DNA from: Opitutaceae bacterium
Lineage (GTDB): Bacteria > Verrucomicrobiota > Verrucomicrobiia > Opitutales > Opitutaceae
DNA length: 64,000 nt
Direction of reading: 5' to 3'
NCBI GenBank assembly: GCA_023269565.1
Contig: JAHFTD010000004.1
Coordinates: 1-64,000 of the forward strand
The notes under the pieces were generated by a model. That model had not been told where the DNA came from and did no database searches. It was given only the letters and a program-made list of their open reading frames with translations. Shown piece after piece: positions 58,427 to 62,043 of this stretch. A program made the position numbers and the translations under genes. Position 1 is the stretch's first letter; each line of letters opens with the position of its first letter.

Positions 58427-58605
58427 GCCGCGGCGGCAAGACCCGGCTGCGGCTTGTTTGCTCACCCGGCCCGGCATCAACGTTCACCGCCCGGCCGGGC
58501 ATTAAACATTAAAACCTGACCTTTTTTGACTGTCCCCAAGCCCAATTTGGCAATCCAGTTTCCCGACCCACGCCTGGGCCCCCGGACCCCGCCGGCAAAG
58601 CAGGC

Positions 58606-58670
58606 ATTGTCACCTAATAGGTGACAATCGGTTTTTCCCGAGGGGACAATGTCACCTATTAAGTGACAAT
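58606..58670. repeat. two near-identical 23-bp palindromes
   Basis: ATTGTCACCTAATAGGTGACAAT (58606-58628) and AATGTCACCTATTAAGTGACAAT (58648-58670). Confidence 0.85.
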
Positions 58671-58810
58671 GGATCGGAGGGAGAACAGACGGCGAGGATC
58701 TCGCCCGAGGCCGAGAGGACGCACACCGTGTGCCGGCGGTCCCCGAGATCGATACCGATGGTTTGTTTATTGGTCGGGCGCAGAAGGCGGAGAGTTTGAC
58801 GCAGCGCACC
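58652..58810 (-). pseudogene. N-terminal relic of a second IS110-family transposase
   Basis: minus-strand open frame GALRQTLRLLRPTNKQTIGIDLGDRRHTVCVLSASGEILAVCSPSDPLSLNR*; IGIDLGDRRHTVCVL is IS110-like; no ATG. Confidence 0.65.
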
Positions 58811-58881
58811 TCAAAGTGCGATGCGCCACTCGACGCCTTCTTGTATGTTCGATTCGATGTTAGTTTTACACGAGGTCAGAG

Positions 58882-60075
<1,194 letters not shown>

Positions 60076-60090
60076 CACCGCTGCTCATTC

Positions 60091-60555
60091 CTACTGGTTG
60101 GGCTCTTTTTGGCGCATGAGAGATATCAAATCGGCATACGAAATCGCCTGTTCATGATCTTCGTCCACTTCTTCCCGCAGATAAACAGCCTCACCCGATC
60201 TTGGATTCTTCTCGTAGTCCGCAAAAAAGACCAATGCATACTTCGGCGCGACGACGTGAGAAAACAGCGGATTGTCTGAACGGTCCCACGTGACAACACG
60301 GCCGCCAACTTCTGGGGTTCGGCCTCGAGAACGAAGAACACAAACCAAAATCAAAGTCTCCCTTTTCTTCGTCCATTCCACTCGCGCCAAGACTACCAAT
60401 TTGGATGCCTGCCAATGGTGCTGCAGATCCTGGATGAAAGCCGCTTGGTCGACATTCTTGGGCAAACAGTAGAAGAGCCGTTCGCCAACATCGGCTGCTC
60501 TGACTACTGCGAAGAGCAGAAAGAAGACTGACAGACACCGCGTCGTTTTGCTCAT
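60091..60555 (-). CDS. hypothetical exported protein; candidate integron cassette gene
   Basis: signal peptide MSKTTRCLSVFFLLFAVVRA; start codon 3 nt from attC R' box; stop lies at the IS110 junction. Confidence 0.6.
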   Translation of the reverse strand: MSKTTRCLSVFFLLFAVVRAADVGERLFYCLPKNVDQAAFIQDLQHHWQASKLVVLARVEWTKKRETLILVCVLRSRGRTPEVGGRVVTWDRSDNPLFSHVVAPKYALVFFADYEKNPRSGEAVYLREEVDEDHEQAISYADLISLMRQKEPNQ

Positions 60556-60558
60556 TTT

Positions 60559-60619
60559 GGCTAACGTTCAAGATGAGCCACGGCCGCTTGGGGCCGTTGG
60601 CTCTGGCGTCTGGTTCGGC
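60559..60619 (-). other. attC-like integron recombination site (61 nt)
   Basis: minus strand: GCCGAAC-CAGACGCCA-GAGCCAACGGCC-CCAAGC-GGCCGTGGCTC-ATCTTGAAC-GTTAGCC; imperfect hairpin with one extrahelical base, AAC/GTT end boxes. Confidence 0.6.
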
Positions 60620-60629
60620 TGTTTTGATT

Positions 60630-60995
60630 TCACCATGGACCACCCCAATTGACCTTCAAAAGACACTTCATCGGATCGCCCACGAATCTCCAAGATTTCT
60701 TCATCCCTTGAATCTCGAAGGTCATTCCATTCGGATGATGGTAGTCTCCTTTCTTTGAGGTATCGACGATCCACGCTACTCCTCCTTCCGGCATAGGATC
60801 CGGGATGAACTCACTTTCTGTGGGGCTGATAGTCGCGACTCGATAGCCGTAGCCATTACCGTAAAACGGCTCACCAATCTGTCGATTGGTCTGAGTGATG
60901 AAATCCTTGTGCTGAGTCTCGACCGAGGCGCAGCCCGATGAAATCGCGAGCCAAACTGCAAAGAAAAACGTTAGAGGTATTGCGCGAATATTCAT
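60630..60995 (-). CDS. hypothetical lipoprotein; candidate integron cassette gene
   Basis: lipobox AISSGC; stop 10 nt from the attC R'' box. Confidence 0.6.
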   Translation of the reverse strand: MNIRAIPLTFFFAVWLAISSGCASVETQHKDFITQTNRQIGEPFYGNGYGYRVATISPTESEFIPDPMPEGGVAWIVDTSKKGDYHHPNGMTFEIQGMKKSWRFVGDPMKCLLKVNWGGPW

Positions 60996-61218
60996 CTTTT
61001 TGCCGAACAGTGTTATTCGGCCAAACCGAAGTCCGGGATTCTGGAGCGGATCATGGCGGGATAATCCCTCCAGGCCTTTTGCGAGGCAAGGTTGGAGATT
61101 TACGGATTTGGGTCTGCACCGTCTGCCAATTCCGTAGCCGGGGGAACCCCCGTTGGTTGCTTCCGTCGCGAAAGCAAGCCCTGGCCCCGGCGGGCAGAAT
61201 TCTCTGGCTCCATCAGCC

Positions 61219-62043
61219 TCATGCGGCCGCCGGCCGCCGCGAGGCGCGGAAAATCAGCGCCGCGCCGGCGGCGACGAGGAAGATCGAATAGAAAGTCCCG
61301 CGGCTGAGGCCGAGAATGAGCCCGGCGTCGGGTTCGCGGAACATTTCCCCGAAAACCCGCACCACCGCGTAGGCAATGAGGAACTCGCCCGCGAGCCGGC
61401 CGGGCCGTGCGGGGGCGACGTCGGTTTTCCAAAAGCGCCACTGTGTGTAGGCGAAGAGCAGCAGGCCCTCGAGCCCGGCCTGGTAGAGTTGCGAAGGATG
61501 GCGCGGCACGATGAGCCGGACCGGATGATTCGGGTCGCTGAGCGGAAAAACCACCGCCCACGGCACGTCGGTCGTCTTGCCCCAGAGTTCGCCGTTGATG
61601 AAATTGGCGATGCGGCCGAAGAACAGTCCGACCGGCGCAGTCGTCACCACCAGATCGGCGAGGTGGAAGAAATTGACGGACGACTTCCGCGCGTAGAGCC
61701 AGAGCGCGATGACCACGCCCACCATGCCGCCGTGGCTGGACATGCCGCCTTCCCACACGCGCAGCAGCACGAGCGGGTCGTGCCGGAAGATTTCCGGCTG
61801 GTAGAGGACGAAATATCCGAACCGTCCGCCAAGGATCACGCCGGCGACGAGCGCGAGCATGAGGTCCATGATGGCGTTGTTGTCGAGCGGCGAGCGGCCC
61901 ACGCGGCGGTAGCGCCGCAGCAGCCAGCCCGCGGCAACGAAGCCGAGGAGATAGGCGAGCCCGTAGTAGCGGATGCCGAAGTTCTCCCCAAAACGGATTA
62001 GGAACGGGCTGAGGTCGTGGACCCAGTAAGCGAGGGGCAGCAT
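61219..62043 (-). CDS. lgt: prolipoprotein diacylglyceryl transferase
   Basis: IRYYGLAYLLGF; VWEGGMSSHGGMVGV; FFGRIANFINGELWGKTTDVPWAVVFP; RHPSQLYQAGLEG. Confidence 0.96.
   Translation of the reverse strand: MLPLAYWVHDLSPFLIRFGENFGIRYYGLAYLLGFVAAGWLLRRYRRVGRSPLDNNAIMDLMLALVAGVILGGRFGYFVLYQPEIFRHDPLVLLRVWEGGMSSHGGMVGVVIALWLYARKSSVNFFHLADLVVTTAPVGLFFGRIANFINGELWGKTTDVPWAVVFPLSDPNHPVRLIVPRHPSQLYQAGLEGLLLFAYTQWRFWKTDVAPARPGRLAGEFLIAYAVVRVFGEMFREPDAGLILGLSRGTFYSIFLVAAGAALIFRASRRPAAA

Follow-up and report, generated by a model that had tools for sequence, protein, structure and literature searches.

Gene cassettes at an attI-type site, one of several scattered copies, in the genome of an Opitutaceae bacterium

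An integrated gene cassette ends at the G of the GTT triplet, and the bases that follow belong to the next cassette. In sedentary chromosomal integrons, the layout is intI, attI and an attC array, with one attI site per genome. In CALINs, cassettes and attC sites lie in one orientation and intI is not nearby, and the usual threshold of IntegronFinder is two attC sites (PMC12444791). For the origin of such integrase-less arrays, the proposed routes are off-target insertion, loss of intI and rearrangement (PMC8618304). Insertion at attG sites, by which cassettes come to lie at scattered genomic places, is established in other integrons as summarised in PMC12901181 and PMC12444791 (citing Loot et al. 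2024), and the former describes attG sites as divergent from classical att sites. The attI sequence can also stand outside the platform position, as in Delta-attI-type cassettes, where it replaces attC at the cassette end (PMC12901181). In class 1 integrons, the short ORF-11 extends across attI1 and ends at the crossover, its stop coming from the inserted cassette, and amino-acid changes in ORF-11 had little effect (PMC8876359).

We have analysed the first 64,000 nucleotides of contig JAHFTD010000004.1 (C72) from an Opitutaceae bacterium (assembly GCA_023269565.1). This whole stretch is called the window here, and its genome comprises 2.5 Mb in 153 contigs and is 84% complete. A first-pass annotation, made from the sequence alone, had described an attC layout of 61 nt on the minus strand of the window, and we found the sequence, spacing and fold as it described them. 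The segment (60619..60559, GCCGAACCAGACGCCAGAGCCAACGGCCCCAAGCGGCCGTGGCTCATCTTGAACGTTAGCC) carries the inverted end boxes R'' GCCGAAC and R' GTTAGCC, an L''/L' stem with one extrahelical A, an unpaired spacer and a 6-nt loop. A 121-aa ORF (60995..60630) stops 10 nt before it, and the ATG of a co-oriented 154-aa ORF (60555..60091) follows 3 nt after its end, which is the cassette spacing that had been claimed. Both of the proposed end boxes are present, but they pair with each other incompletely: two positions are mismatched, since the final six bases of the attC belong to the next cassette. When folded as single-stranded DNA in its context, the site outperformed 197 of 200 shuffles (z -2.5). 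When the bottom strand was combined with the right box from its own cassette, the full attC fold was recovered at -17.9 kcal/mol (z -3.8), compared with -14.0 kcal/mol for the linear form, and none of the 200 shuffles was equally good. Thus, the bottom-strand hairpin that had been suggested does form in the folding calculation.

The site has relatives within the same genome and beyond it. A second copy on contig C98 shows 96% identity over 53 nt, and BLAST with a 101-base query hit 15 of 57 relatives, many of them more than once, indicating that the window segment is not a chance repeat. In an alignment of 18 attC sites, six stem pairs were changed on both sides, compared with 2.4 expected in shuffles, and 89% of the cells were paired, compared with 22-40% when the partner was slid. 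The covariance model built from these 18 sites gave the window attC 85 bits, a score that is not independent since the window was in the training set; it also found arrays on which it was not trained, was positive in 25 of the 57 relatives, and detected long attC runs beside intI in G005, G013, G020 and G034. The copies on contigs C98, C109 and C57 of the same genome and in the relatives sit between ORFs in a single orientation, so that both the covariance hit and the arrangement of copies agree with the first-pass annotation. Judged by its boxes, fold and relatives, the segment is a genuine attC that separates two co-oriented cassettes, and it is a further member of an already known site type.

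The borders of the cassettes can be read from the DNA through a signature of the circular intermediate. Of 124 consecutive pairs, 113 showed 7/7 complementarity between R'' and the start of the cassette to which it belongs, whereas R'' was fully complementary to the neighbouring right box within the linear site in only 52 of 155 sites. In the window, R'' GCCGAAC matches the start GTTCGGC (61008..61002) at 7/7, which fixes cassette 1, beginning at GAATAACACTGTT, at 61007..60565 on the minus strand (443 nt). Cassette 2 (60564..60091, minus strand) starts with GTTAGCC, and its far box GCCCAAC (60103..60097) matches at only 5/7; accordingly, its far end has been altered. Both flanking genes had been taken to encode small exported proteins, and by reading of the N-termini this description appears to hold: the 121-aa product of cassette 1 is a putative lipoprotein with a lipobox ISSGC, and the 154-aa product of cassette 2 is a putative exported protein with VVRAA. 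The cassette 1 ORF belongs to no Pfam, NCBIfam or PHROGs family, and the cassette 2 ORF to no Pfam or NCBIfam family, with one non-significant PHROGs hit. An Rfam scan of the region gave only two matches, both under the gathering score.

Other cassettes were noticed on the way. On contig C57 (L306, 681-741 and 1142-1240), a further cassette has the start GTTAGGC and R'' GCCTAAC, matching at 7/7, and the stretch fetched there is without an attI-type core. In some first cassettes, GAT stands in place of the GTT core (L140 and L143 in G020, L163 and L164 in G027, L170 in G010, and L105 on C21 of the window genome). The R'' is altered to match in two G020 cases (GATCGGC/GCCGATC and GATGGGC/GCCCATC), so the change is compensated there. 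A weak attC-like match of 18 bits on contig C113 (L040, 2639-2737, minus strand) may be due to chance; it lies upstream of a tyrosine recombinase gene without the IntI-specific region.

At the far end, the R''-like box of cassette 2 lies about 10 nt from an IS110-family insertion sequence (about 58840..60086, plus strand; PF01548, NF033542; ends taken from copies in relatives) with its CDS at about 59131 to 60075. The rest of the second attC is not recognisable, and the window holds one intact attC and an R''-like box cut off at this element. Some IS1111-type elements target attC (PMC11187229). The attC-like flank, GCCCAAC.AGTAGGAAT, recurs at an IS110 relative in G024 (C159) that lies near two attC sites; this flank is shared by the G024 copy only, most copies being without it, so that targeting of attC is at most a possibility here. 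Beyond the element, two copies of an inverted repeat around a TTGTCACCTATTAGGTGACAA-like sequence occupy 58605..58672, where Rfam gave a mir-605 match under the gathering score.

Cassette 1 starts within an attI-type core, GAATAACACTGTTCGGC (61018..61002, minus strand), where we place the crossover between G61008 and T61007. The exact 13-mer core gave 17 hits in 57 genomes compared with 1 for the reversed pattern, and AATAACACTGTTNGGC, with up to one mismatch, gave 47 hits compared with 6 for the reversed control. In nine relatives (G004, G005, G010, G019, G020, G023, G026, G033 and G034; up to two mismatches), the core lies about 490-720 bp 5' of an intI match and points away from intI, which is the position of attI. 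The first cassette matches at 7/7 in 18 of the 19 attI-type sites that have an attC within 700 nt; in a named genome collection, 38 sites are followed by an attC and the same holds for 31 of them, and the named genomes with the core are mostly Opitutaceae or other Verrucomicrobiota. On the one hand, the crossover core in the window is the start point of the first cassette. On the other hand, it is not adjacent to intI, and lgt lies upstream instead, with its stop at 61219. Since no intI adjoins it, we name the site attI-type rather than attI. A sigma-70 promoter scan upstream in the platform gave no match.

The upstream part of this platform (61110..61019, minus strand) is also present on contigs C109 and C21. 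The three contigs have about 120 bp in common, ending just past the crossover, with 83-88% identity, and the platforms stand behind unrelated genes. Thus, the genome contains three attI-type platform copies of roughly 100 bp, each followed by cassette-like genes, and one bare core. The core on C21 is degenerate (AATAATACTGATCGGC), with no clear attC match behind it. The bare core, on C98, consists of the 13 nt without upstream homology to the other platforms, which means that not all of the scattered sites are full copies of attI. An unsystematic look at the platform copies revealed no transposase or terminal repeat.

A search of the 84%-complete assembly gave no integron integrase above the cut-off of the family, and the longer hits lack the model region from about 178 to 236. 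The first-pass annotation had seen no integrase in the window; this was confirmed, and the assembly yielded only an intI-like C-terminal fragment of 46 codons on contig C87 (23551-23661, L009), near an assembly gap, with the remaining gene missing. While intI is absent from the assembly examined, an intact gene may lie in the missing part of the genome. None of the three platform copies stands beside intI, suggesting that IntI acted in trans, either from elsewhere or from a gene that has since been lost.

Several relatives likewise have attI-type copies that lie far from intI and are followed by a matched first cassette. In the complete genome of G004, matched sites at 2.31 and 4.21 Mb come in addition to the intI and attI near 0.69 Mb; G005 has its intI-linked attI at 0.47 Mb and 7/7 sites at 0.18 and 7.08 Mb. 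Platform families like those of the window genome were found in G001, G002, G004, G005, G023 and G034, copies within one genome having 40-230 bp upstream in common, and the scattered copies of G005 and of G034 are similar to the intI-linked attI of the respective genome. We infer from these arrangements that the scattered sites are attI copies served in trans.

These features allow the locus to be set beside the described systems. The annotation had allowed for either a CALIN or the distal part of an integron in the chromosome. The cassettes in one orientation without nearby intI support a CALIN-type array, whereas the attI-type site that starts the array means that it is not simply a distal part. 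Unlike a typical CALIN, the array begins with a copy of a repeated platform, and the one intact attC in the window is below the usual IntegronFinder threshold of two (PMC12444791). Relatives of the family share the attI core and the attC type and have the sedentary layout, but the window array has no adjoining intI, and there are several attI-type sites per genome. The scattered positions recall attG sites; in contrast to these, the core and 40-230 bp upstream are shared within a genome. In comparison with Delta-attI-type cassettes, the attI-type sequence here is the receiving site at the array start.

A leader ORF (MIRSRIPDFGLAE, followed by a stop) was read directly at 61054..61013 on the minus strand, and is possibly a counterpart of ORF-11 of attI1. 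The predicted leader has its stop in the platform itself, inside the attI core, while that of ORF-11 comes from the inserted cassette. The leader ORF on C21 differs from it by one synonymous change. At 47 of 57 nonredundant sites, an ORF that begins with ATG and spans 10 codons or more ends within the core or immediately before it, compared with 16.4 +/- 3.2 (maximum 24) in shuffles; since these representatives were hand-picked and may include sites other than attI, the contrast matters rather than the exact number. Changes in the leader ORFs are spread evenly over the codon positions with no third-position excess, which rules out conserved leader proteins. Accordingly, it appears that the open frame, not the peptide, is maintained, which resembles the case of ORF-11.

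A second class of sites comprises 15 loci with up to 300 bp of upstream sequence in common; at those that were read, a divergent gene of 65-73 aa, intact or decayed, takes the place of intI. This gene, X, shows a third-position excess (249 compared with 185 and 130), and searches of Pfam, NCBIfam and PHROGs gave no match for it. It occurs in 5 of 57 genomes, in 4 of these 5 close to an attI-type core, and is lacking from the window platform. Divergent copies of this conserved gene beside intI-less attI-type sites were seen at L157, L201, L207, L237, L242, L247, L252, L263, L273 and L169.

We consider it quite likely, on the sequence evidence, that the cassettes were inserted by IntI in trans at a dispersed attI-type platform and that the far end was broken at the IS110-family element. 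On this view, the 61-nt segment is the attC belonging to a gene cassette that has no promoter; cassettes in circular form, as folded single-stranded DNA, would have been inserted by IntI at 61018..61002, giving the order attI-type site, cassette 1, attC and cassette 2, with the second attC broken off. IntI would have come from elsewhere or from a gene since lost, of which the remnant on C87 may be the survivor. By analogy with ORF-11 in class 1 integrons, ribosomes probably reach the first cassette gene by way of the short ORF that crosses the platform and stops in the core. The sequence itself shows the attC structure, the cassette borders, the identity of the core with intI-linked sites, the repetition of the platform and the lack of intI in the assembly. 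Such translational coupling, like IntI catalysis in trans and present inactivity, is what the arrangement suggests. We also put forward, tentatively and at somewhat less than even chances, a joint proposal: a multi-site system in which one IntI serves in trans scattered attI platforms with leader ORFs, one class having X in place of intI, X occurring almost only next to such sites in the genomes searched.

Instead, each attI-type site might once have had its own intI, since deleted, so that the arrays are relics of several complete integrons. The remnant on C87 would fit, and among the origins proposed for CALINs is the loss of intI (PMC8618304). Nevertheless, we regard this as unlikely: about 110 bp lie between the lgt stop and the end of the window platform downstream of it, leaving no room for or trace of intI, no intI hit was obtained at 14 collection sites whose first cassette matches at 7/7 and which have 1.6 kb or more of upstream sequence, and G004 and G005 retain intI elsewhere yet carry further copies. 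We give still less credence to off-target capture of the attG type, in which IntI would have used genomic sequences resembling the attI core by chance. After such insertion, the sequences to the left of the crossover would be unrelated from one site to another, whereas C72, C109 and C21 have about 120 bp upstream in common and similar upstream families occur in G001, G002, G004, G005, G023 and G034. This homology argues against off-target capture for those three contigs; the C98 array, which matches at the core with unrelated sequence upstream, may be an ordinary off-target insertion. A terminator or other intergenic hairpin within an operon is scarcely credible, since the segment, GC-rich and between co-oriented genes as it is, has conserved unpaired boxes, compensatory changes, no T run after it and relatives in arrays beside intI, and its complementarity to the cassette start, the circle signature, contradicts this reading.

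For the preferred explanation, insertion in trans at scattered attI copies, we found nothing on point in the open-access literature (scattered attI platforms, multiple attI sites, Opitutaceae or O. terrae integrons), which is weak evidence of novelty; within that literature, the arrangement may be a variant without precedent. Scattered copies of the landing site would be a further route to integrase-less arrays, one that predicts array start points and borders readable from sequence alone. It would also mean that several first-position cassettes are expressed at once per genome, compared with one. If the multi-site reading is true, cassettes would be expressed at many chromosomal places at once.
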